Below are positions 728-15,663 of a stretch of DNA of 64,000 nucleotides, piece by piece. The position numbers and the translations under genes are program-made. Origin of the DNA: Rhodoligotrophos appendicifer (GTDB taxonomy: Bacteria > Pseudomonadota > Alphaproteobacteria > Rhizobiales > Im1); contig NZ_VHKL01000003.1 in NCBI RefSeq assembly GCF_007474605.1, positions 99,156 to 163,155 on the forward strand, given 5' to 3'. Every line of letters begins with the position of its first letter. Position 1 is the first letter of the stretch. The notes under the pieces were generated by a model, which saw nothing but the letters and a program-made list of their open reading frames with translations, had not been told where the DNA came from and ran no database searches.

Positions 728-1642
728 TCAGGCGGCGGCATTTGCCTTAGACGGGGGTCTGGCGATCTCCGCGCCCGCCTGGCGTTCGAAGAAATGAACC
801 GTCCGGTTGACATCGGCGGTGGCGCCGATCTCCTTGACGATCGCCTTGTAGTATTCCTGAACCATGCCGCCCAGAAAGAGCGGCACGTCCGAGCCGATCG
901 CCAGTTGGTTCGCGAGCTTGACATCCTTCAGCATCAGGCCGAGGGCAAAACCCTGGTCAAGATTGTCGCCAGACAGGATATGGCGTGGGAAGGTGACTTC
1001 CAGCGTATAGGAGCGTCCCGAGCCCTTGTTGAGGACTTCGACCGCCTTCTCGGGGGGCAGACCGTTTCGGGCAGCCAGCCCGATCACTTCGAAGGCAAGC
1101 AGCCGCTGGCTTGCCGCCATGAGATTGTTGCAGGTCTTGGCCACGTGACCGTTTCCACTGCCGCCACAATGCAGAACATTGACGCTGATCTTCTTCAGGA
1201 TCGGCTCGATCTTCGCAAACTGCGCGTCGCTGGCGCCAACCATGATCGCTATCTTGCCCGCTTCCGCCCATTGTGGACCGCCGCTGACCGGCGCATCCAC
1301 AAGCTCGATGCCATGGGGCTCCAGCTCTTGCGCCATCTCCCGTGTGGCAATGGCATCACCCGTAGTCTGGTCGACGATCATCGATCCCCGCTTCAGACCG
1401 GTGACCAGACCATCCTTGCCAAAGATGACGTCACGGACCTGGGCTGAAGTCTGCAGGCAGGTGAACACCACATCACAAGCTTCCGCCAGTGCCTTGGCGC
1501 TCTTGTAGGCAGTTGCACCATCGGCCACGAAAGTCGCTACCGCTTTGGGATTGAGATCGAACACGGCAATCGGCTGGTCGAGATGCAGCCGTCGCGCAAG
1601 CGCGCCGCCCATATTGCCAATACCGACATAACCAATGGTCAT
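728..1642 (-). CDS. NAD(P)-dependent beta-hydroxyacid dehydrogenase (3-hydroxyisobutyrate dehydrogenase family), paralogue 1
   Basis: About 304 residues. The Rossmann motif GYVGIGNMGGALA is at the N-terminus, the substrate-binding DAPVSGG motif near residue 120, and the catalytic lysine in GHVAKTCNN near residue 170, so the protein should oxidise or reduce a 3-hydroxy acid at C3 (the family includes 3-hydroxyisobutyrate dehydrogenase and tartronate semialdehyde reductase). Two adjacent ATGs follow an AGGAGG; the second (1642) has the better 5-nt spacing. It heads an operon with the lactonase downstream. It is clearly homologous along its whole length with the gene at 4536-5435 (shared VIFGKDGL, DQTTGDA, IAIMVG), so the two are local duplicates. 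Exact substrate unknown. Confidence 0.88.
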   Translation of the reverse strand: MTIGYVGIGNMGGALARRLHLDQPIAVFDLNPKAVATFVADGATAYKSAKALAEACDVVFTCLQTSAQVRDVIFGKDGLVTGLKRGSMIVDQTTGDAIATREMAQELEPHGIELVDAPVSGGPQWAEAGKIAIMVGASDAQFAKIEPILKKISVNVLHCGGSGNGHVAKTCNNLMAASQRLLAFEVIGLAARNGLPPEKAVEVLNKGSGRSYTLEVTFPRHILSGDNLDQGFALGLMLKDVKLANQLAIGSDVPLFLGGMVQEYYKAIVKEIGATADVNRTVHFFERQAGAEIARPPSKANAAA

Positions 1643-1759: not shown

Positions 1760-1795
1760 GTTGTCAATACGCTCACTATATTGTCTATATGCAAC
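1760..1795. promoter_or_regulatory. Paired 16-bp operator, copies 20 bp apart (pair 1)
   Basis: Copy at 1780-1795 reads ATTGT-CTATAT-GCAAC, and a weaker copy at 1760-1775 reads GTTGT-CAATAC-GCTCA. Both fit the consensus ATTGT-N2-AT-N2-ACAAT found again at 1934, 5498, 5518, 5564 and 5584. The pair sits upstream of the dehydrogenase/lactonase operon that starts at 1642. This copy set is the most degenerate of the four; it is called mainly because of the identical 20-bp offset. Confidence 0.5.
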
Positions 1796-1933
1796 AATTT
1801 TGAATGGCGGGCGCGGCTTGTGATCTCGCATCCGGCATGTCCCTCAAGTCAATACCCATAAGAGCTTCGCGCCCAGTCAACTCGAGCATGCCAATGAAGG
1901 CTATCCAAAACCATCCCTGATCTCATTGATGTT

Positions 1934-1969
1934 ATTGTATATGGACAATAAACATAGCGCATTGACAAT
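1934..1969. promoter_or_regulatory. Paired 16-bp operator, copies 20 bp apart (pair 2)
   Basis: Copy at 1934-1949 reads ATTGT-ATATGG-ACAAT, with flanks that extend the dyad to TTATTGT/ACAATAA. A second copy at 1954-1969 reads ATAGC-GCATTG-ACAAT and overlaps the predicted -35 hexamer of the MaoC promoter. The 424-bp space between the divergent genes (1643-2066) holds pairs 1 and 2 and no convincing reading frame; it is noticeably AT-richer than the genes around it. Position over the -35 suggests repression. Confidence 0.65.
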
Positions 1970-1989
1970 TAATATGAGTTAGCGATAGT
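1962..1989 (+). promoter_or_regulatory. Predicted sigma-70 promoter of the hydratase/CoA-transferase unit
   Basis: A perfect -35 TTGACA at 1962-1967 is followed after 16 bp by GATAGT, a partial match to TATAAT. It lies about 75 bp upstream of the MaoC start and overlaps the second copy of operator pair 2. Prediction only. Confidence 0.4.
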
Positions 1990-2066
1990 CGATCTGACAT
2001 CGCCGTCTCCTTAGCCCCGGCTCAACGCCGGGCGAGCACGGCACTAAGAGCCGCACGGAGGGCGCC

Positions 2067-3200
2067 ATGAATCAGGAAACCCATAACTTCCCGAAGATTA
2101 CGGAAGGCGCTCTCGCCGACCTCCGGGGCCGGATCGGCAAACGGATCGAGGATACCCTTGAGCCCTGGTGCTATGAGGCGACGCGCGACAACATCCGCCA
2201 CTACGCGCACGGCATGGGCGACGACAATCCACTCTGGTGTGATCCTGAATATGCAGCTCAAACGCGTTATCGTGGGCTGATCGCACCACCGAGCTTCTTG
2301 TTCGCTTGCAGCCGCATCATCTCTGGATATGTCGGCGGCCTACCGGGCGTCCATGCAATGTGGTCGGGTGCGGATTGGACTTGGCATAAGCCGGTCTACC
2401 GCAATGACAGTTTCACGACCGAGGCTTGGCTGAAGGATCTGGTTGAACACGAGACCCGTTTTGCAGGTCGCGCCATCCAGCAGATCTACCATGTGAACTT
2501 TTTCAACCAGCGGGGGGAGCTTGTCGCCGAGGCCGAAAGTTGGTGTTTTCGCACCGATCGCAATCTCGCCCGTGAGAAGGGTACGAAATACACTGAAGCG
2601 AAGGCCAAGGCCCCGAAATACTATTCCGACAGCGAGTTGGAGGAGATCTTCGACCTCTATGAGCGGGAAGAGATCCGCGGATCCACTCCGCGCTACTGGG
2701 ATGACGTCAACATAGGCGACAAGCTTCCGCGGATGGTGAAGGGACCAATGACGGTGTCCGGTTTCATCGCTTACGCGCAGGGCTGGGGCGGCCTCTATGT
2801 GCGCGCGAACAAACTCAACTGGAAGCAGATCAAAAAACACCCTGGCCTTGGGATCAAGAACCGCTTTGGCGTACCCGACTGTCCGGAGCGCGTCCATTGG
2901 GAGGCGGAACTCGCCCTCGCCGTGGGCGCACCCGGCGCCTATGATTATGGACCCGAGCGCTGCTCCTGGTTAACCCACCACGTCACCAACTGGATGGGCG
3001 ACGATGGTTTCCTGCGGCAGGCGAAGTGCCAGATTCGCCGCCACAATCCTGAGGGCGATACCATTTTCATCGACAGCAGCGTTACGCGGAAGTTCGATGA
3101 GGCCGGCCGCAAATTGGTGGAGATAACCCAAGAAGCGCTAACGCAGGATGGCGAACTATCCGCCCGTGGATCAGCTGTCGTGGAACTTCCAAGTCGGTGA
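2067..3200 (+). CDS. MaoC-type (hot-dog fold) acyl-CoA hydratase/dehydratase, double-domain
   Basis: 377 residues, the length of a two-hot-dog enoyl-CoA hydratase. The N-terminal half (IRHYAHGMGDDNPLWCDPEYA, then YRGLIAPPSFLFA) matches the FAS1/MaoC dehydratase N-terminal domain; the Asp in GDDNPL and the downstream GLIAPP loop correspond to the hydratase-2 motif region. The C-terminal half (PRYWDDVNIGDKLPRMVKGPMTVSGFIAYAQGWGG) is a second MaoC-like domain. The expected reaction is reversible hydration of an enoyl-CoA in the cytoplasm. The ATG follows a GGAG at a suitable distance. Its divergent promoter is shared with the dehydrogenase operon, and the CoA-transferase follows 42 bp on. Steroid-type pathways use MaoC hydratases before a thiolase-fold retro-aldolase such as the one at 10708. 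Confidence 0.82.
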   Translation: MNQETHNFPKITEGALADLRGRIGKRIEDTLEPWCYEATRDNIRHYAHGMGDDNPLWCDPEYAAQTRYRGLIAPPSFLFACSRIISGYVGGLPGVHAMWSGADWTWHKPVYRNDSFTTEAWLKDLVEHETRFAGRAIQQIYHVNFFNQRGELVAEAESWCFRTDRNLAREKGTKYTEAKAKAPKYYSDSELEEIFDLYEREEIRGSTPRYWDDVNIGDKLPRMVKGPMTVSGFIAYAQGWGGLYVRANKLNWKQIKKHPGLGIKNRFGVPDCPERVHWEAELALAVGAPGAYDYGPERCSWLTHHVTNWMGDDGFLRQAKCQIRRHNPEGDTIFIDSSVTRKFDEAGRKLVEITQEALTQDGELSARGSAVVELPSR

Positions 3201-3242
3201 TTATAAGGTCGTTCTCTTGACTGAAATCACAAACAAACCCGA

Positions 3243-4517
3243 ATGCCGATCGAGCTTGAGCCCAACACGCCGTTCCTCTCCAGCCTCCTGCACAAAGGAG
3301 ATCGCGTCGTATGGGCTCAGGGCACGGCAGAACCAACCTCTTTGTCCCAGGCGTTGATAACCGAAGCTCCCGAATTAGGCGGAGTTTCAGCTTTTGTAGG
3401 TACGTGCTTCTCCTCTACCCTGGAGAGAGCGGGATCGGATCATGTCAGCTTCTCAAGCTTTGGCGCGGTAGGTTCCCTGCGCAAACTTGCCGCTCGCGGC
3501 CGGCTCGATATCATACCTTGCCATGCCTCTCAGGTCGGATCCTACATCCGCGACGGCCTGATCGGCTGTGACGTGGCGTTCATTCAATTGAGCGAGCCGG
3601 GTCCAGATGGACGTCACAGCCTTGGACTTGTTAATGACTACATTCGCGATGCAATGGCGGTAGCCCGGATTGTCATTGCGGAAATTAACGACCAGGTCCC
3701 GTGGACCTATGGCAATGCGCTCGCCAAAGAGGACGGCATAGACGCTATCCTCCGCGTATCGCGGCCGCCTATCGAGGTCCCAGGCGGAAAACCTAATGAG
3801 ATCGATGCGGCAATTGGCCGTCACACGGCCGCATTCATCGAAGATGGCGCCACGTTGCAGCTCGGCGTCGGCTCGCTGCCGGATGCGGTGCTTGGCGCCC
3901 TGAGCGATCGGCGTGATCTTGCCATCCACAGCGGGGTGATCGGCGATGCCGTCATAGATCTGGTGGAACGCGGTGTCATCACCAACGGGCTCAAACCAAT
4001 TGATACGGGGATCTCGACCACAGGCACCGTTTTCGGCACGTCGCGTCTGTATCGCTTCATTGATCGCAATCCGGCGTTTGCAGTGATGCCCAGCTCCTAT
4101 CTCTACGCGGATTCGACGCTCGCTCGCCTACCGCAACTGGTGTCGATCAATTCAGCCTTAGAAGTTGACCTCACAGGACAGGTTGGAGCTGAACACACGG
4201 CGGAAGGCTTCGTAGGCACGATTGGCGGTCAACCGGACTTTGTCCGCGCGGCCCAACGCTCATCGCGCGGTCACTCGATTATCGCGATGCGCTCGACGGC
4301 GGGTGGCGGCACGCTGAGTCGGATCACACACCGCCTCAGCGGCAGCGTTACAACCCATCGCGCGGACGTAGACATCGTGATTACGGAATTTGGCGTCGCC
4401 GAGCTGAAGGGCCAAACAATTGCAGAGCGGGCGCGGCGGCTTATCGCTATCGCACACCCGGATTTTCATGAGACCCTCGACCGCGAAACTCACCGACTGC
4501 TGTCGCGGCGATATTGA
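3243..4517 (+). CDS. Acetyl-CoA hydrolase/CoA-transferase family protein
   Basis: 424 residues, close to the usual length of 4-hydroxybutyrate CoA-transferase and related class I CoA-transferases. Family features are visible: LGVGSLPDAVLGAL in the middle, NSALEVDLTGQV in the C-terminal domain (the region holding the catalytic glutamate in this family), then GTIGGQPDFVRAAQ and DIVITEFGVAELKGQT, which are typical of the acetyl-CoA hydrolase/transferase C-terminal domain. It would move CoA from acetyl-CoA or succinyl-CoA to a carboxylate, or hydrolyse an acyl-CoA. No strong ribosome binding site precedes the ATG, so translation may be coupled to the hydratase gene. It converges on the dehydrogenase ending at 4536, 18 bp away. 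Confidence 0.85.
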   Translation: MPIELEPNTPFLSSLLHKGDRVVWAQGTAEPTSLSQALITEAPELGGVSAFVGTCFSSTLERAGSDHVSFSSFGAVGSLRKLAARGRLDIIPCHASQVGSYIRDGLIGCDVAFIQLSEPGPDGRHSLGLVNDYIRDAMAVARIVIAEINDQVPWTYGNALAKEDGIDAILRVSRPPIEVPGGKPNEIDAAIGRHTAAFIEDGATLQLGVGSLPDAVLGALSDRRDLAIHSGVIGDAVIDLVERGVITNGLKPIDTGISTTGTVFGTSRLYRFIDRNPAFAVMPSSYLYADSTLARLPQLVSINSALEVDLTGQVGAEHTAEGFVGTIGGQPDFVRAAQRSSRGHSIIAMRSTAGGGTLSRITHRLSGSVTTHRADVDIVITEFGVAELKGQTIAERARRLIAIAHPDFHETLDRETHRLLSRRY

Positions 4518-4535
4518 GGTAGCCCCGCCAGAATT

Positions 4536-5435
4536 CTACCCATGAGCGCCTGGCGGTGTGATTGTGGCGCCGGAGAGCCGCTCGAATAGCTTCACCCCGA
4601 GATTGACCTCGCCATCCCTGCCGAATTCATTGGCCAAGTCGCGGTAGAGCGCCAGCACCGTTGAGCCAAAGAACATCGGCACGTCCGAGGCGGCCGCCAG
4701 ATCCTGCGCCAGTCGCACGTCCTTGTGCATAAGGCCAAGGGTAAAACCCTGAGCAAGCTCGCCCGTGAGGATATGCTTAGGAAACGTGTGCTCGAGCATG
4801 AAGTTGCGGCCGGAGCTCTTGACCATGACCTCCCAGGTCTTTTGGGGCGTGGCGCCGTTCTTGACCGCCAGGCACATCACTTCGAAGGTCAGCAGCCTTT
4901 GTGCCGCGTTGAGCAGGTTGTTCGCAAGCTTGATGACCTGACCAGTCCCGAGAACACCGGTATGGACCACGTTGGAGCTGATCATCCTGAGAACCGGCTC
5001 TGCGCGCGCGAATTGGACCTCGGTACCGCCGACCATGATTGCAATCGTGCCTGCCGCAGCACCGGGAGGACCGCCGCTCACCGGACCATCAATCAATTCG
5101 ATCCCGTCAGTCTCGAGTTCCTTGGCCATCTGGCGCGTCGCATTCGCATCGCCCGTCGTCTGGTCGATGATCATGGTGCCACGCGCTAGGCCCTCGCGCA
5201 GTCCATCCTTGCCAAAGATAACTTCACGAACCTGCTCCGAAGTCTGCAGCGACAGGAGAACGATGTCGCTCTTTTCGCCAACTTCCCTGTTACTTTGGCA
5301 AGCCGTCGCCCCGAGTCTGGTTAGGGCCTCGATATTGGCGGCACGAAGGTCGAAAACGAACAAGGGTTGCGACAACTGCAGCCTTGCGGCAAGGGCGCCA
5401 CCCATGTGGCCGAGGCCGATATATCCGACTTTCAT
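4536..5435 (-). CDS. NAD(P)-dependent beta-hydroxyacid dehydrogenase, paralogue 2
   Basis: About 299 residues with the Rossmann motif GYIGLGHMGGALA, DGPVSGG, and the catalytic lysine in GQVIKLANN. It is a full-length relative of the gene at 728-1642. The ATG at 5435 lies 7 nt behind GGGAGG, which decides the start. It is a single-gene unit whose promoter region is shared divergently with the flavin monooxygenase and carries operator pairs 3 and 4. Two similar dehydrogenases under the same operator type suggest either two successive steps or two stereoisomers of one substrate. Confidence 0.88.
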   Translation of the reverse strand: MKVGYIGLGHMGGALAARLQLSQPLFVFDLRAANIEALTRLGATACQSNREVGEKSDIVLLSLQTSEQVREVIFGKDGLREGLARGTMIIDQTTGDANATRQMAKELETDGIELIDGPVSGGPPGAAAGTIAIMVGGTEVQFARAEPVLRMISSNVVHTGVLGTGQVIKLANNLLNAAQRLLTFEVMCLAVKNGATPQKTWEVMVKSSGRNFMLEHTFPKHILTGELAQGFTLGLMHKDVRLAQDLAAASDVPMFFGSTVLALYRDLANEFGRDGEVNLGVKLFERLSGATITPPGAHG

Positions 5436-5497
5436 TGCATCCTCCCAGACAGAGTGCTTCCGCAACTTCTGCCGCGACGATAAGAAGGATGATCTGT

Positions 5498-5533
5498 GTT
5501 GTAAACACACAACGAGAATTGCCCTCGTACAAT
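5498..5533. promoter_or_regulatory. Paired 16-bp operator, copies 20 bp apart (pair 3)
   Basis: Copies are GTTGT-AAACAC-ACAAC at 5498-5513 and ATTGC-CCTCGT-ACAAT at 5518-5533. Both have 5-bp arms and a 6-bp spacer as at 1934. The pair sits 60-100 bp upstream of the dehydrogenase start at 5435. Confidence 0.65.
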
Positions 5534-5563
5534 AGATCTCAAATCGGCAGAGCTTATCAAGTT

Positions 5564-5599
5564 ATTGTACATGTACAATTTCAATGGTGTATTTACAAT
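5564..5599. promoter_or_regulatory. Paired 16-bp operator, copies 20 bp apart (pair 4)
   Basis: The copy at 5564-5579 is a perfect 16-bp palindrome, ATTGTACATGTACAAT. The second at 5584-5599 is ATGGT-GTATTT-ACAAT. The pair lies 90-125 bp upstream of the monooxygenase start. A perfect palindrome of this kind is the strongest single site in the set and would be the natural probe for the regulator. Confidence 0.75.
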
Positions 5600-5687
5600 T
5601 TTTAGGGTCGCTGGGACTATGGGTCAATTGGGACCGAATGCCCTGCCCCGCCGCTTCGGGGAACGACGAGAACCCAGGAGGATAAAA

Positions 5688-6785
5688 GTGAAGATCGGAA
5701 TCCTGCTCACATCCCATCCCGATGCGGCGACAGAGCCTTATCCACACCAGACTGTGCATGATCGCGTTACCGGCGAGGTGATGGAGGCCGAAGAAGACGG
5801 CTTTGATTCCGTCTGGATCGCGGAGCATCACTTTTCCAACACTTACGGGATCCTACCCGATCCTTTCGCCTACCTGGCGTATCTTGCAGCCAAAACGTCA
5901 CGGATCAAGCTCTGTGCAGGCGTCATGGTCGTTCCGCTGCATCATCCAATGCGCATCGTCGAGAATGCCGCCTTCATCGACATCCTGAGCAAGGGGCGGT
6001 TTCAGCTGGGTCTTGGTTCCGGCTACCGGCCTTACGAATTCGACGGTCTGGGGGTGGACTACGAAGAGCGCCGCGCTATCCAGCAGGAGGCCATCCCTCT
6101 TATCCTTGATGGTTTCCACAAGAAGCGGATGATGCATCAGGGCAAGTACTTCACGATCAAGATCCCAGAAGATCGCGAGATTTTTCCCCAGCCCATCCAA
6201 CGGCCGCACCCTCCGATTTATCTCGGTGCCGGCACTGATGGCTCGATCATCCAGGCGGCCCGCAATGGCTTCGGGCTGATGCAATCGTCTCTGCCCAGTG
6301 CCGAGGTGCTCGGACAGCATATTGATCTTTATCGCCGGCATATGCACGAGGCCCCCGCCCTGCTCGCTCAGAACCCTGCCTTCGGTCAGACCGACGTTGT
6401 CCGCATGGTCTATGTCGCGGAGACGGACGCCAAGGCGCGCGAAGATAGCGAGGAAGGTATTGTCCGCCACATGCGGAGCTTCCTTGTGGGCACGGGCAAA
6501 TACCTAGGCGACGTGACCGAGAAGTCCGGTGCCGACGATTTCACCTATGACAAGGTCGTTCGCAATACGATCCTGCACGGATCGCCGGAGACGGTGATCC
6601 GTCAGATCGAAGACCTCGCAAAGGTCGGCGTGACTTCGATCATGATCCACTACCCGCCCTATTATGGCATGCAGAAAACTTTGAAAATGCTCCGCTTCTT
6701 CGCGAAAGAGGTCTTGCCGCACGTAAGTAACATCGGCGCCAAGGTTTCCACACCGATCCACCAAGAAAATCGGAAGATTGCGTGA
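5688..6785 (+). CDS. LLM-class flavin-dependent monooxygenase (bacterial luciferase-like)
   Basis: About 365 residues. The TIM-barrel luciferase fold is recognisable from KIGILLTSHPDA at the N-terminus, the EAEEDGFDSVWIAEHHF strand-helix near residue 40, RIKLCAGVMVVPLHHP, and GRFQLGLGSGYRPYEFDGLG. These enzymes use FMNH2 supplied by a separate reductase, which is not in this window, and insert oxygen into ketones, alkanes, sulfonates or amines. The start is GTG at 5688, six bases after AGGAGG; an upstream in-frame ATG at 5565 falls inside the operator and is rejected. The stop overlaps the lactonase start (GTGA), so the two are translationally coupled. A monooxygenase feeding a lactonase suggests a Baeyer-Villiger-like oxidation of a cyclic ketone, but this is inference. 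Confidence 0.85.
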   Translation: MKIGILLTSHPDAATEPYPHQTVHDRVTGEVMEAEEDGFDSVWIAEHHFSNTYGILPDPFAYLAYLAAKTSRIKLCAGVMVVPLHHPMRIVENAAFIDILSKGRFQLGLGSGYRPYEFDGLGVDYEERRAIQQEAIPLILDGFHKKRMMHQGKYFTIKIPEDREIFPQPIQRPHPPIYLGAGTDGSIIQAARNGFGLMQSSLPSAEVLGQHIDLYRRHMHEAPALLAQNPAFGQTDVVRMVYVAETDAKAREDSEEGIVRHMRSFLVGTGKYLGDVTEKSGADDFTYDKVVRNTILHGSPETVIRQIEDLAKVGVTSIMIHYPPYYGMQKTLKMLRFFAKEVLPHVSNIGAKVSTPIHQENRKIA

Positions 6786-7726
6786 CCACCTCGACCAGGA
6801 GGTTGCCCCTGAACGGTCGGGTAGTCGCAACCGGCCTCCGCTTTCCTGAAGGGCCGGTCGCCCTCAGCGACGGCTCCATCCTTGTTGTCGAGATGGCTGC
6901 CGGCGATTTGACGCGGATTTCCCCCGATGGTCACAAGACCGTCGTGGCCCATGTTGGCGGCGGCCCCAACGGAGCTGCCATCGGACCCGATGGTCACATT
7001 TATGTCTGTAACAATGGTGGCTTGACCTTCATACAGGGCCCTGATGGCCGTCGTCGCCCCACGGGCGGAGCTCCTGGCCATCCGGACGGTTCGATTCAGC
7101 GCGTCGACCTGTCCACCGGCAAAGTCGAAACCATCTTGACCGAGTGCGACGGCCAGCCGCTACGTGGCCCCAATGACATCATCTTCGATGGCGCCGGTGG
7201 TTTCTGGTTCACCGACCTCGGCAAGGTTCACGAGACCGTCATTTATCGAGGAGCCGTCTACTACGCCCGCCTCGACGGCTCCCTTATCAAGCGGGCGATA
7301 TTTCCGATCTTTATGCCAAACGGCGTGGGACTTTCACCGGATGGCCGGACCCTCTATGTGTCGGAGACCGATACGAGCCGGCTATGGTCGTGGCCGATCA
7401 TCGGCACCGGTGAGGTCGCCAAGGATCCATGGCCATCGCCCCACGGGGGTAAGATCGTCCATGGCTTGCCTGGTTACAGCCGCTTCGATTCCCTGGCCGT
7501 TGAAGAAGCCGGAAACATCTGCATAGCAACCCTGGTGACCGGTGGTGTTGCGGTTGTCACACCAAACGGCGACCTCGCCGAATTCCATGAGGCGCCTGAA
7601 CCCTACAGCACCAACATCTGCTTCGGCGGCTCCGACCTCAGAACAGCGTTCATCACTCTTTCCGGCACTGGGATCCTGTTGGCGGCTGATTGGCCCAGGC
7701 CGGGGCTCCGACTGCAGAACAGCTGA
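6782..7726 (+). CDS. SMP-30/gluconolactonase-family lactonase-like protein
   Basis: 314 residues starting at a GTG that overlaps the monooxygenase stop. Beta-propeller signatures are clear: GLRFPEGPVALSDGSI (first metal-ligand glutamate), GGPNGAAIGPDGHIYVCNNGG, LRGPNDIIFDGAGGFWFTDLG and MPNGVGLSPDGRTLYVSET; the E, N, N/D ligand set of SMP-30 lactonases is therefore present. Expected role: hydrolysis of a lactone or enol ester in the cytoplasm, since no signal peptide is seen. The tight coupling with the monooxygenase indicates that both act in consecutive steps. It resembles the partial gene at 1-700 by family only. Confidence 0.85.
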   Translation: MTTSTRRLPLNGRVVATGLRFPEGPVALSDGSILVVEMAAGDLTRISPDGHKTVVAHVGGGPNGAAIGPDGHIYVCNNGGLTFIQGPDGRRRPTGGAPGHPDGSIQRVDLSTGKVETILTECDGQPLRGPNDIIFDGAGGFWFTDLGKVHETVIYRGAVYYARLDGSLIKRAIFPIFMPNGVGLSPDGRTLYVSETDTSRLWSWPIIGTGEVAKDPWPSPHGGKIVHGLPGYSRFDSLAVEEAGNICIATLVTGGVAVVTPNGDLAEFHEAPEPYSTNICFGGSDLRTAFITLSGTGILLAADWPRPGLRLQNS

Positions 7727-7787
7727 GGGGTACGAAGGAACTTCGCTAGCAGACTGCTTTCACAATCAAAAGACTGGAGGAATGTCG

Positions 7788-8999
7788 ATGGGTCGGAAAT
7801 ATTTCGTCGGGGCCATGGCTGCAGCGGCCGTCTTGATGACAGCCTCCGTGGGCTTTGCACAATCGCCTCCTCTCAAGATCGGGATCCTAAACGACCAGAA
7901 CGGTCCCTTCGCAGACTTGGGTGGCAAGGGCTCGGTCCTTGCTGCTCAGATGGCGGTTGAGGACTTTGGGGGGAAGGTCTTGGGCCGGGATATTGAGATC
8001 ATCAGTGCCGACCACCAGAACAAGGCCGACATTGCCTCGTCCATCGCAACGAGATGGTATGATGAGGAGGGCGTCAGCGCGATCGTGGGCCTGCCCGTCT
8101 CATCCGTGGCTCTCGCTGTGCAGTTCATGGCCAAGGAGCGAAAGAAAATCAGTATCACGACGGGAGCCGGGTCCACGGCCCTCATCGGCAAGGAGTGTTC
8201 GCCGACCGGCTTTCTATGGGTTTACAACACCTACTCATTGGCGCACGGGACGGCGTTGGCGGTTACGAAGGGCGGCGGTCAAACCTGGTTCTTCATCAGT
8301 TCCGACTACACCTTCGGCAAACAGCTGGAAAAAGATGCCACTGAGGTGATCGAGGCCAATGGCGGAAAGGTTCTTGGCGCGGTCCGGCACCCAATCAACT
8401 CTAACGATTTCTCCTCATTCCTGGTCCAGGCTCAAGCCTCCAAGGCTGAGGTCATAGGTCTTGCGAATGGTGGCGCCGATACAGTGAACGCGATCAAGCA
8501 GGCCGCCGAATTCGGCATCATTGAAGGCGGTCAGAAGTTGGCCGCCATGATCCTGTTCGTGCAGGACGTCCGTAGTATGGGTCTCGACGCGGCCCAGGGC
8601 CTCGTTCTCACCTCCGGTTTTTATTGGGATCAGAACGAGCGGACGCGCGACTGGTCAGAGCGCTTCATGAAACGCAACGATGGCAAGGCTCCGAGCGAAC
8701 TTCAGGCCGGCGACTATAGTGCAGTGATGCATTACCTGAAGGCGCTAGCTGCGGCGGGCAAGGATGACGGCGTCCTGGTCGCCGAGAAGATGCGGGAGAT
8801 CCCCGTCGACGACTTCATGACAAAGAATTCCAAGATCCGCGCGGATGGATATTTGCAGCGGGACTTCTATCTTTTCCAGGTGAAGACACCGGCGGAGAGC
8901 AAAGGCGAGTGGGACTATTTCAAGGAGCTTAGCATGATCCCGGCCAGTGAGGCCTCGCCGCCCGTCGCCGGCTCGGAATGCGCATTGCTGAAAAACTGA
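7788..8999 (+). CDS. Periplasmic substrate-binding protein of a branched-chain amino-acid-type ABC transporter
   Basis: 403 residues with a cleavable signal peptide (MGRKYFVGAMAAAAVLMTAS, cleavage near VGFAQ). The mature part has the type I periplasmic binding fold of the LivJ family: LKIGILNDQNGPFADLGGKGSVLAAQMAVEDFGG, then SAIVGLPVSSVALAVQFMA and SSDYTFGKQLEKDATEVIEANGGKVLG. The ATG at 7788 is 7 nt after GGAGG, and an earlier ATG at 7782 is too close to it. In this family the ligand is often an aromatic or aliphatic carboxylate rather than an amino acid. No permease or ATPase genes (livHMGF) are in the window, so the binding protein must work with components encoded elsewhere. It probably takes up the substrate of this cluster. 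Confidence 0.88.
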   Translation: MGRKYFVGAMAAAAVLMTASVGFAQSPPLKIGILNDQNGPFADLGGKGSVLAAQMAVEDFGGKVLGRDIEIISADHQNKADIASSIATRWYDEEGVSAIVGLPVSSVALAVQFMAKERKKISITTGAGSTALIGKECSPTGFLWVYNTYSLAHGTALAVTKGGGQTWFFISSDYTFGKQLEKDATEVIEANGGKVLGAVRHPINSNDFSSFLVQAQASKAEVIGLANGGADTVNAIKQAAEFGIIEGGQKLAAMILFVQDVRSMGLDAAQGLVLTSGFYWDQNERTRDWSERFMKRNDGKAPSELQAGDYSAVMHYLKALAAAGKDDGVLVAEKMREIPVDDFMTKNSKIRADGYLQRDFYLFQVKTPAESKGEWDYFKELSMIPASEASPPVAGSECALLKN

Positions 9000-9031
9000 C
9001 AGAGCTCCTCCCTCCTAGCCCGGTGTGAACG

Positions 9032-10669
9032 ATGGCTCAATCGGTCTACGAACAGTTCCGTGACGCGGCTCTCCAGTCACCGAATTTGCCCTTCCTTTGT
9101 TATCCGCCATCGGTGGATCGGGGCTACGTGGCCGAGGGGGGAGATTTTCTCTACGGCGAAATGCTTGGCAAAGTTGATGCAATTGCTCGGTCCTACCAGG
9201 AGGCCGGCTATCAGGCGGGACATCGCGTGGCTCTGGTGCTCGGGAACCGGCCCGAGCATTTCGTCCATCTGCTCGCGCTGAACAGTGTCGGCGTTACTGT
9301 CGTGCCGCTGAATCCTGGCTATCTCAATCACGAATTCGCATATGGAATTGACTTCGCCGACTGTGCGCTTGTCGTCGGGGCTGCGCCCCGCATGGATGAT
9401 CTCTGGCTCGTTGCCGCGGGTCTTTCCACCCCCGTCCCCGTGATCGATGGCGAGCAACTGCCAGACAGGTTTCCCTCACCCGCAGCCAGAATTCAGAGCA
9501 GCGCTTCGAGCCTGGGCGACCGCGAAGCCATGATCATCTACACCTCAGGGACCACGGGTCGACCCAAAGGTTGCATCATCTCCAACGCGTCATGCCTGGC
9601 CGCCGGTGAAAGCTACAGCACCGCCGGCGGCGTCATCAATTTCGAGAAGGGTCGCGACAGGCTCTATATCCCTCTGCCCTCCTATCACATGAATGTCTCG
9701 ATCTACACGCTGAACACCATGGCCCGCCTGCACAGCTGCATGGTGATGCAGGACCGCTTTCGCGCGTCCACCTGGTGGTCCGACATCGTCGTGACCCGAG
9801 CCACATGTGTCCACTATATGGGGATCATTCCGCCATTGCTGTTGAAGGCGCCGTTTAGCCAGGACGAGCGCCGTCATTCCGTGAAGTTCGGTCAGGGCGC
9901 CGGCATCGATCCCATCGTGAAAGAGGGCTTCGAGCGACGCTTCGGCTTCCCGCTCGTCGAAGCTTGGGGCATGACGGAGACCTCGCGCGCGATCCAAAAT
10001 AGCCGGGAGCCGCGGGACTCCGATGGCCGCGCGTTCGGCAGGCCGCGACCCCCGCTCGAAGTGAGGATCGCTGATGAGAACGATGAGCCATTGCCTTTTG
10101 GCATGGCGGGCGAACTGCTCGTCAGAGCGGAGGGTGGCAATCCTCGGCATGGTTTCTTCTCGGGATATCTGAAGCAGCCGGAAGAAACCGAGAAGGCTTG
10201 GCGCAATGGCTGGTTTCACACCGGTGATATCGCCATGCAGAGGGAGGATGGCATGCTGTTCTTCATTGAACGTCGCAAGAACATCATCCGTCGCAGTGGT
10301 GAGAACATTGCCGCCGCCGAGATCGAGGAAGCGCTCATCAATCATCCCGAAATTGAGAGTGTCGCGGTCATGGCGGTTGCCGACGAGTTGCATGACGAGG
10401 AGATCCTCGCCTGCATCGTCTTGATGCCTGGAGTTGATCCCTCTGTCGACCTCGCCCGAGCGATCCAGGAGCGGGCCCGAGACCGGCTTGCCCCCTACAA
10501 GCTGCCGGCATGGCTGGCCTTCATTGAGACGATACCGGTGACAGGGACCCAAAAAGTTCAGAAGGGATCAATCTTTCCCGAGGGGGTCGACCCGCGCACA
10601 GATCCCCGCAGCGTCGATCTCCGCGACACCAAGAGGAAGCGTTCGCAGGAGAAGATCCGCATCATTTGA
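9032..10669 (+). CDS. AMP-forming acyl-CoA ligase (ANL superfamily, carnitine/crotonobetaine ligase-like)
   Basis: 545 residues. The adenylation P-loop IIYTSGTTGRPKG is at about residues 168-180, the second core motif VEAWGMTETSR lies near residue 310, GWFHTGDIAM near 395, and the hinge ERRKNIIRRSGENIAAAEIEE near 415. The C-terminal catalytic lysine is in TGTQKVQKG. It activates a carboxylic acid with ATP and CoA. The overall pattern recalls CaiC-like ligases, but specificity cannot be read. It follows the binding-protein gene by 32 bp and precedes the thiolase-fold gene by 38 bp, so it probably activates the acid released by the lactonase or imported by the transporter. Confidence 0.87.
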   Translation: MAQSVYEQFRDAALQSPNLPFLCYPPSVDRGYVAEGGDFLYGEMLGKVDAIARSYQEAGYQAGHRVALVLGNRPEHFVHLLALNSVGVTVVPLNPGYLNHEFAYGIDFADCALVVGAAPRMDDLWLVAAGLSTPVPVIDGEQLPDRFPSPAARIQSSASSLGDREAMIIYTSGTTGRPKGCIISNASCLAAGESYSTAGGVINFEKGRDRLYIPLPSYHMNVSIYTLNTMARLHSCMVMQDRFRASTWWSDIVVTRATCVHYMGIIPPLLLKAPFSQDERRHSVKFGQGAGIDPIVKEGFERRFGFPLVEAWGMTETSRAIQNSREPRDSDGRAFGRPRPPLEVRIADENDEPLPFGMAGELLVRAEGGNPRHGFFSGYLKQPEETEKAWRNGWFHTGDIAMQREDGMLFFIERRKNIIRRSGENIAAAEIEEALINHPEIESVAVMAVADELHDEEILACIVLMPGVDPSVDLARAIQERARDRLAPYKLPAWLAFIETIPVTGTQKVQKGSIFPEGVDPRTDPRSVDLRDTKRKRSQEKIRII

Positions 10670-10707
10670 AACAAGCTGCTGAACCACCTGGATGAGGACG
10701 TCGAAAA

Positions 10708-11862
10708 ATGTCGCTTGCCCATATCGTCGGGATCTTCGAGCACCCGACGCGTCTCGCCCGCGAGCAGTCGGTGGCACAGTTGCATGGCGAGGTCGCCATC
10801 GGCGCGCTTGCTGATGCCGGCCTCTCCAAGAGCGACATCGACGGCTATCTCTGCGCCGGCGACGCACCGGGCATAGGCCCGCTGTCGATCGTCGAATATC
10901 TCGGGCTCAATGTTCGTTTTGCCGATTCGACCGACATTGGCGGCTCATCGCCGATTGCTCATGTCGCCCACGCTGCCCAGGCGATAGCGGCCGGGCGTTG
11001 CAATGTTGCGCTGATCACCACGGCAGGACGCCCCCGAGCCGCGGCTGAGCGGCCGGGCGCTTTGACGGAAATTACCGACTATCCCGAAAGTGCCTTCGAA
11101 CTCCCCTATAGGCCGGCGCTGGCGGCCTCCTACGCCATGTGCGCGAAGCGCCATATGCATGAATTTGGCACCACCAGCGAGCAACTCGCCTGGATCAAAG
11201 TTGCCATCTCCCATCATGCCCAGCACAATCCGCACGCCCTGTTGCGCAATGTGGTGACCGTGGACGACGTGCTCGGCTCCCCCATGATCGCCGACCCGCT
11301 CCATCGTCTGGACTGTTGCGTGATGACAGATGGAGGGGGCGCCGTCATCGTCGCCCGCGAGGAGATCGCGCGCAGTCTCGATCGTCCGCGCGTTCGCCTG
11401 CGTGGGGCCGGCGAGTGGATCAAATATCAACGGGGCGCCGATTTCGATATCACCACGACCGCTGGCAAGAGGTCCGGCGCACAGGCCTTCGCGGAAGCAG
11501 GCGTCGAACCGGACGACATCAAATATCTCTCCACCTATGACAGCTTCACCATCACCGTGCTTCTCGCACTCGAAGATCTCGGCTTCTGCGCCAAGGGTGA
11601 AGGTGGCCGCTTTGTGGAGGAGGGTCAGCTTATTTCCGGCATTGGCCGCGTCCCCGTGAACACGGATGGGGGTGGCCTTTGCAACAATCATCCAGCCCAT
11701 CGCGGCGGCATGACGAAGATCCTGGAGACTGTACGCCAGCTGCGCGGCGAGGCCCATCCGGCTGTCCAGGTGAAGAATTGTAACCTGGCGATTGCCCATG
11801 GCACGGGTGGGATGCTCGATCGTCGCCATGGCTGTGCAACTGCAATACTTGAGCGGCTCTGA
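10708..11862 (+). CDS. Thiolase-fold protein lacking thiolase cysteines; probable acyl-CoA retro-aldolase/transferase
   Basis: 384 residues with the thiolase superfamily fold: VAIGALADAGLSKSDIDGYLCAG near the N-terminus, AHAAQAIAAGRCNVALITTAG, and a C-terminal GLCNNHPAHRGGM and AIAHGTGGMLDRRHG. At the place where thiolases carry the nucleophilic cysteine the sequence is DIGGSSPIAHV, with no cysteine, and the C-terminal CxG loop is replaced by HGTGG. This is the pattern of SCP-x/Ltp2-like proteins; Ltp2 is known to be a thiolase-fold aldolase that needs a DUF35 partner. The next gene, two bases away, is just such a DUF35 protein. I therefore favour carbon-carbon cleavage of a 3-hydroxyacyl-CoA, although a plain thiolase annotation is what homology alone would give. 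Confidence 0.8.
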   Translation: MSLAHIVGIFEHPTRLAREQSVAQLHGEVAIGALADAGLSKSDIDGYLCAGDAPGIGPLSIVEYLGLNVRFADSTDIGGSSPIAHVAHAAQAIAAGRCNVALITTAGRPRAAAERPGALTEITDYPESAFELPYRPALAASYAMCAKRHMHEFGTTSEQLAWIKVAISHHAQHNPHALLRNVVTVDDVLGSPMIADPLHRLDCCVMTDGGGAVIVAREEIARSLDRPRVRLRGAGEWIKYQRGADFDITTTAGKRSGAQAFAEAGVEPDDIKYLSTYDSFTITVLLALEDLGFCAKGEGGRFVEEGQLISGIGRVPVNTDGGGLCNNHPAHRGGMTKILETVRQLRGEAHPAVQVKNCNLAIAHGTGGMLDRRHGCATAILERL

Positions 11863-11864
11863 AC

Positions 11865-12257
11865 ATGAACTCTGAATCGTCCATTCCCTCTCCCACACGC
11901 ACTCCCGAAACGGATGAATTCTGGGATGCGGCGGACAACTCGCAGCTGCTGGTAGGCCATTGCGAAAGCTGCCGGAAGCCGCATTACTATCCTCGACGCA
12001 TCTGCCCATTCTGCCTGTCCACAGCTGTAGTCTGGCGTGCAGCGAGAGGCGAAGGCCGGATTTATTCATTTAGCGTCGTCCGTAGGGCGGTCGTGCCCTA
12101 CGTAACGGCGTTGGTCACTTTGCCCGAAGGCGTCACCCTGATGACCAACATCATCGACGCCGACCCCGAGGGCATGCGAATTGGCGATCGTGTCCGAGCA
12201 GTTTTCGTGCCCGCAGAAGATGGTCAGCTGGTACCCTTCTTTACCCCTGATCCTTAA
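11865..12257 (+). CDS. DUF35 OB-fold protein with rubredoxin-like zinc ribbon
   Basis: 130 residues. A zinc ribbon with cysteines at 33, 36, 47 and 50 (CESC and CPFC) is followed by an OB-fold (GRIYSFSVVRRAVVPYVTALVTLPEG, then GDRVRAVFVPAEDG). Members of this family pair with thiolase-fold proteins or MaoC proteins and complete their active assemblies. The start lies two bases after the thiolase-fold stop, which supports a physical complex of the two. It is the last gene of the six-gene unit starting at 5688. Confidence 0.85.
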   Translation: MNSESSIPSPTRTPETDEFWDAADNSQLLVGHCESCRKPHYYPRRICPFCLSTAVVWRAARGEGRIYSFSVVRRAVVPYVTALVTLPEGVTLMTNIIDADPEGMRIGDRVRAVFVPAEDGQLVPFFTPDP

Positions 12258-12545: not shown

Positions 12546-14549
12546 CTATTCCTGTGACGGCGAAGCCGCAGCGTGTTCGGGCGCGGCCGACACAAGTTGC
12601 GAGTCTGGCGACTGTACGAGAAGAAGATAGCGCTCAAACTGTACGAGCACGTCCGCGATGATCTGATCGCGTGTCATCCCCATGATGTCGTAACCGCGCC
12701 CGCCGCTTGAGAAATAAGTGCGCGCCTCGTACCGATAGTCGGGTCGCGCGGAGTCCAGGGCCGAAAAGGCAGGAAGTCTTTGGGCAGCTGGCATGACACC
12801 GTAGATGAAGTCGCGGACGCCCTTGGCGGGGGAACTGAGTGCGACCATGCCATTTTCCTCGACGACCTGGGAGAGTCGATGGGTTCGGGTGAGTTCCTGG
12901 GCCACCTGTTCCAGTGCGGGGCGCACCTCTTTAGCGATGAATACATCAACCTCCTGGCGGGTCGGTGCATGCAGCATCAGTGCCAGGCGCCGCTGCCAAG
13001 TGAGACCGGTTGCAGGCTGAGCGGAGATGGCAACCGGCCGCGCCGCATGCGCTTCGTTTTGAGCGAGGTCCGAACGCATGCCGACGAAAAGGGCCCATAC
13101 CAGAGCCAACATGACGAAGGTGAAGGGTAAGGCACTGGCGATAGTCGCCGATTGTAACGCACCTAGGCCTCCAGCGACCAGCAGACCTGCTGCCACGAGC
13201 CCTTCCAGTGCACACCAGAATACCCGCTGGGCAGTGGTGGTCTCGGTTTCACCGCCGGCTGCGATGGCATCGACGACCAATGAGCCTGAATCCGACGAAG
13301 TGACGAAGAAGGTCGCCACCAGAATGATGGCGAGCGTGGAGGTGACCGCTGGCCACGGAAGGTACTCGAAGAATTGGAAGAGACCGACCGACACGTCCTG
13401 AGCGACCTCTGCGGCAAGCCGGCCATTGGCTTTGGTCGTGTCGATGAAGATCGCTGTGTTCCCAAACACGGTCATCCAGAAAAAGGTGAACCCGGCTGGG
13501 ATGAACAGAACGGCGAAAACAAACTGACGCACAGTACGTCCGCGGGAGATCCGCGCAATGAACATGCCGACGAAGGGCGACCATGAGATCCACCAGGCCC
13601 AGTAGAACAGGGTCCAGCTGTCAATCCAGGGCGTGGGCTCATAGGCATAGATATTGAAGGTACGCAGGAGCAGCGTATCGAGATAGAGCCCGATATTCTG
13701 GACGAAGTCGCGAAACAACGAGGCGGTGGGCCCAACGATGAGCACGAAGAGCATCAATAAGATGGCAAGCGCCAGGTTTGCCTCCGACAAGATGCGGACG
13801 CCCTTGTCGAGACCCGTGACCACCGAAAGAGTAGCACACGCGGTAATTCCAACGATGAGTGCGAGTTGTACGGAAGTACTGACCGGCACACCAAGCAGGT
13901 AGCTCAGGCCGGAGTTGATCTGTGTGACACCCAGACCCAGTGATGTTGCGATGCCGAACATCGTGCCCACGATGGCAAAAATGTCGACTATGTGTCCGAT
14001 GGGCCCGTTGATCCGCTCTTTCAGCAGTGGATAAAGGCCGGACCGTATGGTGAGGGGGAGATTGTATCGATAGCCAAAATAAGCCAGCGAGAGCCCGACG
14101 ATAGCGTATACGGACCACGCATGAATGCCCCAGTGGAAGAAGGTGACGCTCATCGCTTCGCGCATCGCCTCAATGGACCGTGAATCGGCCGTCGGGGGCG
14201 CCATAAAATGAGTGATAGGCTCGCCCACCGCATAAAACATCAAACCGATTCCCATGCCGGCCGCGAAGAGCATGGCGATCCAAGATGAAAACATGAAGTC
14301 CGGAACGGCCTCGTCAGGCCCCAGCTTAAGACGGCCGAAACGACCCATGCTCAGAACCAGCGCCGAAGTAAGGAAGATGCCGACGGCCATAAGATAGAGC
14401 CAGCCGAAGCCGGCCAGAATGCTGATCTGCAGCTTTCCAAAGATATTGGAGGCGGCATCCGGGAGAATGACACCAATCATCAGAAAGATAGCGATGACGG
14501 CCACGGATCCGAAAAAAACTGGCGGATTGATAACAAAGCGACCGAACAT
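12546..14549 (-). CDS. BCCT-family betaine/choline/carnitine transporter (BetT-like, long C-terminal tail)
   Basis: 667 residues with twelve hydrophobic segments. The family signatures are present: [16 protein letters not shown] in the third-fourth segment region and [29 protein letters not shown] in the conserved eighth-segment motif. After the last membrane segment, about 150 hydrophilic residues form a cytoplasmic tail like that of BetT, which in that protein takes part in osmotic control. The first segment follows closely on [15 protein letters not shown], so the ATG start is natural. It would take up choline, betaine or a similar quaternary amine with protons or sodium. It is transcribed alone, and no bet genes are nearby. 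Confidence 0.9.
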
Positions 14550-14937: not shown

Positions 14938-15663
14938 TCATGGCAAGGGATTCTCGCCGCCGCGCCAATCGCGTGCGATCTTGAAGGTCCTGACGATCCC
15001 TGTCTCTCCGGCCACCGTAATCCGGAGCGCGCGGCTTTCTGGAATGCGCACGATCCAGCCGAGGTCGAGAAGCCGGATCAGCAGTGCCGTGCCGAATTGG
15101 CCGGCGAGATGCGGACGACGCTCGCTCCAGTCGAGACAGGTTCGGCACAAGGGGCGTCTGGACCGGACCTCCTTCGCGAGGTCGAGACCGAAAGCCTCGA
15201 AAAACCGGCGACCCTCGTCGGTAATCATGCCGGCGCCATCCGCCAGGATGATGAAGCCCTGGGCGCAGAGGCTGTCGGTGATGGCAATGGCAAGTCTTCC
15301 GGCCATATGATCGTAGCACGTGCGTGCGATCCGCAGGGCCCTGTCGCGCGGGCCCAGCGGATGATGCCGCTTGGGTCCCGAGGCTGCGACCGCCATCAGC
15401 GCATGGATCGCTTGCGCGATGTCCGGTGAGGCAAGCCGGTAATAGCGATGTCGTCCCTGCTTTTCCAGAACGATCAATTTGGCGTCTGCCAGCTTGGCAA
15501 GATGCCCGCTCGTCGTCTGCGCAGTGACGCCGGCGTGGCGCGCCAGCTCGCCCGCCGTCAAAGCTTGGCCGCCCATCAGGGCGGCCAACATGTTTGCTCG
15601 AGCAGCCTCGCCAATGAGGTGGGCGACCTCGGCAATCGTGTTGCCTGAAGCGACATTTGACAT
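14938..15663 (-). CDS. ArsR/SmtB-family winged-helix regulator
   Basis: 241 residues. The first 95 residues are an ArsR-type winged helix: IGEAARANMLAALMGGQALTAGELARHAGVTAQTTSGHLAKLADAKLIVLEKQGRHRYYRLA. The remaining 140 residues are not the short tail of SmtB; they contain CYDHMAGRLAIAITDSL and RPLCRTCLDWSERRPHLAG, with several cysteines and histidines that could form a sensor site. The long C-terminal domain is typical of the ArsR subgroup with a DUF-type sensory extension. It is divergent from the DUF1127 gene, and a 26-bp dyad lies in the 120 bp between them, so autoregulation and control of the DUF1127 gene are likely. The inducer is unknown. Confidence 0.85.
   Translation of the reverse strand: MSNVASGNTIAEVAHLIGEAARANMLAALMGGQALTAGELARHAGVTAQTTSGHLAKLADAKLIVLEKQGRHRYYRLASPDIAQAIHALMAVAASGPKRHHPLGPRDRALRIARTCYDHMAGRLAIAITDSLCAQGFIILADGAGMITDEGRRFFEAFGLDLAKEVRSRRPLCRTCLDWSERRPHLAGQFGTALLIRLLDLGWIVRIPESRALRITVAGETGIVRTFKIARDWRGGENPLP

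Follow-up and report, generated by a model that had tools for sequence, protein, structure and literature searches.

The subject of this analysis is a 64,000-nucleotide stretch of the genome of Rhodoligotrophos appendicifer, hereafter the window, and a 16-bp dyad, ATTGT-N6-ACAAT, that occurs in pairs around the promoters of a catabolic gene cluster. Four pairs lie in the window and three more to its left. Very probably, these pairs are operators of an adjacent IclR-family protein, whose tetramer is predicted from sequence to repress, most likely, its own promoter and the catabolic promoters. The protein, encoded at C3:96588-97394, almost certainly controls the operators, judging from the tandem operator in its own promoter and from the co-occurrence of site and gene in other genomes. 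Here, C3 denotes contig NZ_VHKL01000003.1; the window corresponds to C3:99156-163155, and a window position equals the C3 position minus 99155.

Tandem operators in the window and in the genome

The initial annotation had placed eight copies of the dyad at 1760/1780, 1934/1954, 5498/5518 and 5564/5584, and all are found there, exactly 20 bp apart in each pair. Scored against the ten fixed bases ATTGT/ACAAT, they match at 5 and 8, 10 and 8, 8 and 9, and 10 and 9 positions, respectively; two of the eight are exact, and the palindrome described at 5564 is indeed perfect over its 16 bp. The pairs sit in two divergent intergenic regions, approximately 1643-2066 and 5436-5687, and not in three promoter regions as first described.

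Three window pairs reach a summed score of at least 17 at an offset of 20 bp, and only one does so at any other offset from 16 to 60 bp, namely at 46. When the threshold is lowered to 16, there are again three pairs at offset 20, and seven others are spread over six offsets. No offset-20 pair at either threshold occurred in 200 dinucleotide shuffles of the window. A chance origin of the spacing is rejected, since three of the four pairs exceed everything in these shuffles, in agreement with the earlier view that the pairing goes beyond chance. The pair at 1760/1780, with a sum of 13, lies outside the shuffle comparison and is supported by a matrix built from foreign promoters.

This matrix was derived from 39 foreign iclR promoters and contains no letter from the genome under study. 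It ranks the seven operators of this genome at the top of 97 kb, with scores from 47.0 to 17.1, the best non-overlapping stretch reaching 0.6. Under the matrix, the original division into strong copies (1934, 5498, 5518, 5564 and 5584) and degenerate ones (1760, 1780 and 1954) is partly wrong: the pair at 1760/1780 is placed third and that at 5498/5518 last. The sites at 5498 and 5564 come nearer to four full boxes, with four of five letters in the inner arm of the second dyad.

The exact dyad occurs at six places in the 5.59-Mb genome, against none for the reversed control, and five of the six lie within C3:87571-104734, a 17-kb stretch spanning the window start. Beside all five clustered exact dyads stands a partner at 20 bp that is weaker (7 to 9 of 10 letters). 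Exact copies of the three-box pattern ATTGT-N15-ATTGT-N6-ACAAT occur at five places in the genome, all in the same stretch. With up to three mismatches, it gives 57 rows in the whole genome and 10 in the reversed control; 13 of the 57 are the seven operators in one or both directions, and under the matrix none of the remaining 44 exceeds 9.2. Genome-wide frequency, which had been named beforehand as a test capable of overturning the proposal, is therefore concentrated in this cluster and not random. The dyads are separated by 20 bp in all seven pairs, inside the range of 18-22 nt for an IclR-type tandem operator. The annotated regulon of at least four transcription units was right in its count. 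Three further pairs, at C3:87551, 92270 and 96535, lie to the left of the window. The coordinates of the features are collected in Table 1.

Table 1. Tandem operators, promoter-like hexamers and genes of the cluster (window positions unless prefixed C3; score, foreign-promoter matrix)
Feature	Position	Strand	Score	Description or basis
Tandem operator	C3:87551		42.4	before NMT1-type binding protein gene (-)
Tandem operator	C3:92270		36.5	before Liv-type transporter genes (-)
Tandem operator	C3:96535-96570		47.0	between AMP-dependent CoA ligase gene (-) and iclR (+)
Tandem operator	1760..1795	+	43.1	outer box 1760-1764 (GTTGT), palindrome 1780-1795; third of seven
TTGACA hexamer	1762-1767	-		toward dehydrogenase-lactonase-ALDH genes
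Tandem operator	1934..1969	-	44.9	palindrome 1934-1949, outer box 1965-1969; exact three-box match
TTGACA hexamer	1962-1967	+		toward MaoC gene
Tandem operator	5498..5533	-	17.1	near-complete dyads 5498-5513 and 5518-5533; lowest of seven
Tandem operator	5564..5599	-	32.4	perfect 16-bp palindrome 5564-5579, second dyad 5584-5599
TTTACA hexamer	5592-5597			toward luciferase-like monooxygenase gene
HIBADH1, 3-hydroxyisobutyrate-dehydrogenase-like NAD(P) oxidoreductase	728..1642	-		Pfam PF03446, PF14833 and open reading frames
MaoC/FAS1-dehydratase-domain protein	2067..3200	+		Pfam PF13452, PF01575
Acetyl-CoA hydrolase/CoA-transferase family protein	3243..4517	+		Pfam PF13336, PF02550
HIBADH2, second HIBADH-like oxidoreductase	4536..5435	-		Pfam PF03446, PF14833
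LLM, luciferase-like flavin monooxygenase	5688..6785	+		Pfam PF00296
SMP-30 lactonase, Liv-type binding protein, AMP-dependent CoA ligase, thiolase-like protein, ChsH2-type OB-fold protein	6782..12257	+		Pfam and open reading frames

The linked IclR-family regulator

The regulator gene (window positions -2567 to -1761, plus strand) lies 1.8-2.6 kb before position 1 and encodes 268 amino acids. Its product contains HTH_IclR (PF09339; 33.8 bits, cut-off 22) and IclR_C (PF01614; 48.6 bits, cut-off 24) and belongs by these domains to the IclR family. The initial annotation had expected the regulator to be encoded beyond position 1, which proves correct, and had proposed the GntR (FCD) or TetR family, which does not. 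Binding of the pairs by a GntR (FCD) or TetR dimer encoded elsewhere is very improbable. Both families use dyads of similar length, but the adjacent, co-occurring regulator is IclR: the Pfam scan of its product returned the two IclR domains and an ArsR helix-turn-helix below cut-off, with no GntR or TetR domain. Moreover, a pattern match adjoins an IclR homologue in each of the seven other genomes that were found by DNA alone.

The least probable candidate of all is an ArsR/MarR-like protein encoded at 14938-15663 on the minus strand. It is the sole regulator gene recognised in the scanned part of the window, and in this respect the earlier statement that the window holds no regulator gene was mistaken, though nothing seen ties the gene to the sites. 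Its own promoter, however, has no such operator in the matrix scan of the whole window, and two locus comparisons, covering 9 and 10 related loci, gave no match to it.

TtgV (IclR family, 2xrn/2xro), which controls efflux, is related to the present regulator by sequence profile, whereas the regulator described here lies with a catabolic cluster. For TtgV, tetrameric binding and asymmetry are mentioned in the survey of Suvorova and Gelfand (2021, PMC8222616). The same survey predicts tandem sites 18-22 nt apart in 94 ortholog groups of IclR factors, as well as three-box sites in 32 groups, and it includes Liv-type transporters among the IclR targets. Because such tandem sites have been published, the arrangement found here is already of a known kind. 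The likeness consists in dyads about two helical turns apart, with centres at 18-22 nt in the published sites and at 20 here, and in the Liv-type transporters. The PcaU, PobR and HmgR operators, given in the survey as a palindrome with an external direct half-site, resemble the present element in that extra half-site and in the conserved third box. They differ in the half-site itself, and the protein here is probably a repressor. Against NCBIfam, it stays below cut-off for all eight models matched, with 75 bits versus 284.75 for the PcaR/PcaU/PobR subfamily (TIGR02431) and 76.6 versus 350 for BhcR (NF045644), and it is assigned to neither. In the open-access literature searched, there was no paper with the operator letters and none on the exact site and regulon.

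Conservation of the element

A scan of public contigs with the single IclR protein gave no match. An alignment of seven IclR proteins, including that of R. appendicifer, yielded 269 candidates, and the best 80 of the 269 constitute the homologue set. An IclR search of four genomes of the same family gave one match outside the genome under study, at 34% identity. At the level of the order (397 genomes), a cut-off of E 1e-60 left three genomes with a match, the present one included; it was too strict, because homologues later found in the genomes identified by the DNA pattern had been missed. A search of plasmids returned 18 records, all below 60% identity, of which five were opened.

Upstream of the iclR homologues, the three-box pattern taken from the sites of this genome alone was found with at least 12 of 15 letters in 44 of 79 cases (the best 80 of 269 minus one locus that was too short); among background windows, the figure is 9 of 1343. 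Palindromes in the homologue promoters are accompanied by a direct box at exactly -20 in 33 of 41 cases, which gives these 33 the palindrome plus external direct half-site of a three-box operator; the next commonest offset, -3, occurs in 6. The inner arm of the second dyad retains four or five of its five letters in only 4 of 42 sites, although half of them (21 of 42) keep the C in second place. Consequently, the element is one palindrome with an outer half-site, and the fourth half-site is mostly weak. The sites fit the earlier picture of two dimers side by side on one face of the DNA, and the element is better described by three half-sites, the outer box and the palindrome. Among the iclR promoters, 42 of 80 exceed a matrix score of 15, a circular count that includes the 39 training sites. 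The results free of this circularity are the three-box upstream counts, the -20 offset, the matrix ranking of the seven operators, the pattern scan of 397 genomes with its neighboring genes, and 16 of 36 ligase promoters (see below).

In the 397 genomes of the order, the pattern RTTGTCAA-N12-RTTGT-N6-ACAAY gives 12 matches in 8 genomes, four of them in the genome under study, and one match when read backwards. In the other seven genomes, seven of the eight matches have an IclR homologue on one side and a divergent ligase-then-MaoC pair on the other, one per genome. The identities are 39-45% for IclR, 57-60% for the ligase and 67-74% for MaoC, and a MaoC homologue follows the ligase in all seven. 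The eighth match (G244:C2:1319602-1319637; L101:7603) is a strong operator, scoring 44.5, approximately 15 kb from the ligase-iclR site and near no query gene.

Ligase promoters with enough upstream sequence carry a site (score above 15) in 44 of 64 cases, compared with none of 127 windows placed inside the gene. The outer box points toward the ligase in all 44 and is a perfect TTGACA in 42. Since 28 of the 44 sites belong to the training set of the matrix, the remaining 36 promoters are the informative ones: 16 have a site, and all 16 face the ligase with TTGACA. In seven Alcaligenaceae loci, the iclR promoter is without a site, but a site is present approximately 5 kb off, close to the ligase start.

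The arrangement at the monooxygenase gene is also seen elsewhere. A gammaproteobacterial metagenome-assembled genome (G397; L021 and L109) contains HIBADH2 (71% identity), LLM (71%) and SGL2 (69%) in the order seen at 4536-7726. At L109, the HIBADH2-LLM interval contains a site with a score of 31.4, oriented like the 5564 site. At L033 and L036, an LLM gene (69-70% identity) points away from the IclR homologue, and the tandem site there comes close to four boxes. A lack of conservation before orthologous genes had been named in advance as the second refuting result; the sites are instead conserved in ligase, iclR and HIBADH2-LLM promoters. A separate operator of G397 (L108:7828-7863; score 25.7) is flanked by the genes for a flavin monooxygenase/hydrolase fusion and for an acyl-CoA dehydrogenase, a context hinting at ketone or ester oxidation as the pathway.

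A different motif occurs in part of the homologue set. The site-less iclR promoters L038, L046, L066, L068, L069, L074, L080, L083, L084, L085, L052, L076 and L090 match GTTGTAAATATAGAAT. At 13 of 16 letters, this corresponds to 13 of 38 site-less loci, yet 7 of 42 loci with a site also match at this loose threshold. About 19 bp after GTTGTAAATATAGAAT, a second AT-rich dyad can be seen by eye. These loci belong to Sphingomonadales, Nevskiaceae, Halieaceae and others, with ligase-MaoC genes beside iclR in most. The presence of GTTGTAAATATAGAAT in place of the site described here may reflect a switch of operator specificity inside one regulator group. In the iclR promoters of L041, L045 and L055, the nearest branch after L021, the dyads look fuller by eye, and their offset is 19 and not 20 bp.

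Promoter overlay and proposed mechanism

The promoter elements were examined in an alignment of 48 sites, consisting of the 42 iclR-promoter sites minus one with short flanks, plus seven from the scan of 397 genomes. Toward the divergent gene, the outer box is TTGACA in 43 of 48 sites, and agreement with a -10 element peaks with a spacer of 18 bp, at a mean of 2.33 of 6 letters (at most 1.67 at other spacers). In the direction of iclR, 34 of 48 sites have, 17 bp after TTGTCA, a -10 element with at least four of six letters. The consensus promoter in this direction is TTGTCA-N17-TATATA, with TATATG in the genome under study. An ATG in frame with iclR abuts the site in 18 of 42 cases, as for a leaderless message. 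In the R. appendicifer cluster, the box facing the structural gene is TTGACA at five sites, TTTACA at one and CGTACA at 5498.

TTGACA and TTGTCA-N17-TATATA are thus readable in the element, as they should be if the conserved letters were -35 and -10 elements only, without a repressor site. This explanation is scarcely credible. Box 3 (ACAAY), which lies beyond the -10 element, is conserved about like the other boxes, and the centre of the C3:92270 site is CACAAG, without TATA. Furthermore, the exact pattern is no general promoter, because it is missing from 389 of the 397 genomes. On the evidence given, promoter elements alone are rejected, as are a GntR or TetR regulator and the ArsR-like gene of the window.

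By analogy with the IclR family as treated in PMC8222616, a dimer of dimers would bind the full palindrome RTTGT-N6-ACAAY and a second half-site 20 bp off on the same helix face, the fourth half-site being weak in most copies. The structural-gene promoter would have its -35 hexamer, usually TTGACA, in the outer box, and in iclR promoters the outer box and the palindrome would also form the promoter toward iclR. With these two parts serving both sets of -35 and -10 elements, the bound tetramer would cover both divergent promoters and, extending across two helical turns, would block RNA polymerase at each. Most likely, the IclR protein would keep iclR as well as the catabolic genes repressed, up to its release by a pathway intermediate. 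The repressed set would comprise the ligase, the transporters, HIBADH1-lactonase-ALDH, MaoC-CoA transferase, HIBADH2, and LLM with the genes that follow it.

The main rival keeps the same IclR protein and the same tandem operators and assumes that the protein acts on the catabolic promoters mainly as an activator and on its own gene as a repressor. It is regarded as unlikely. PcaU and PobR act as activators. In PMC8222616, the operators of both proteins have a palindrome with an external direct half-site; seen from the structural gene, the palindrome here lies upstream of the -35 box, a position open to an activator. However, the outer box is the -35 element itself, with the perfect TTGACA of 42 of the 44 site-bearing ligase promoters, and activated promoters usually have poor -35 boxes. 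Repression is preferred because the -35 element is near perfect and lies inside the operator.

Several observations weigh against repression by the linked IclR protein through a conserved operator. The published motif groups 1 and 2 (GKTYCRYW3-4RYGRAMC and TGRAACAN1-2TGTTYCA, as given in PMC8222616) fit RTTGT-N6-ACAAY no better than shuffled letters: on the iclR site of this genome and on one consensus, the best value is at most the shuffled mean, though these groups are not defining for the whole IclR family. The subgroup form TGT-11-ACA reaches 12 on the iclR site, one letter above the shuffled mean of 11.0 (maximum 13). The homologue set leans toward shared DNA specificity, because the scan used the recognition-helix peptide. 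Sites are missing from 38 of the 80 iclR promoters (one of them, L097, has almost no upstream sequence) and from 20 of the 64 ligase promoters. In a quick tree built from 81 IclR proteins, the label for the site is clustered (shuffled mean 26.6 changes), and it requires nine changes; of the 37 site-less rows, 29 fall into two branches, some with another motif, and 8 are scattered. The nearest homologue, L021 (58% identity), has a weak site in its iclR promoter (19.0). A plain-dyad scan of the first eight homologue loci showed no tandem pair at iclR in four of them (L013, L014, L017 and L020). With regard to the promoters, 27 of 48 sites also show the forward -10 element at a spacer of 23, AT-rich repeats making it less telling, and the -10 elements facing the structural genes of R. 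appendicifer are weak.

A more far-reaching proposal, which is put forward tentatively, is that the protein represents a widespread, undescribed IclR subfamily whose operator, RTTGTCAAT-N11-RTTGTATATRGACAAY, is a further motif type laid over back-to-back promoters. The outer half-site would be the -35 element of both the divergent ligase operon and iclR, and the palindrome would hold the -10 element of an often leaderless iclR transcript. The 20-bp spacing would be set by the tetramer together with sigma-70, and six further copies in four further intergenic regions of this genome would give a seven-operator regulon.

Gene content of the cluster

To the left of HIBADH1, close by and on the same strand, lie an SMP-30 lactonase gene and then an aldehyde dehydrogenase (ALDH) gene; their spacing suggests that the three form an operon. 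The same-strand genes after LLM (6782..12257) probably constitute another. Beyond this group are a BCCT transporter gene (12546-14549, minus strand) and the ArsR/MarR-like gene discussed above, with no tandem operator nearby. To the left of the window, C3:79106-85581 (L005) encodes an ABC permease, a second luciferase-like monooxygenase, a flavin reductase and both acyl-CoA carboxylase subunits, possibly a continuation of the NMT1-type transporter operon. To judge from the monooxygenases, lactonases, CoA ligases and acyl-CoA carboxylase, the substrate could be a ketone, a lactone or a branched acid.

Significance

The catabolic cluster now has a likely regulator, a motif and a regulon, and so does a conserved IclR-ligase-MaoC module, the site of which is seen in Alpha-, Beta- and Gammaproteobacteria. 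Searches for the inducer and the substrate are therefore made direct. The element also suggests a way in which one set of letters can serve both an operator and two promoters.

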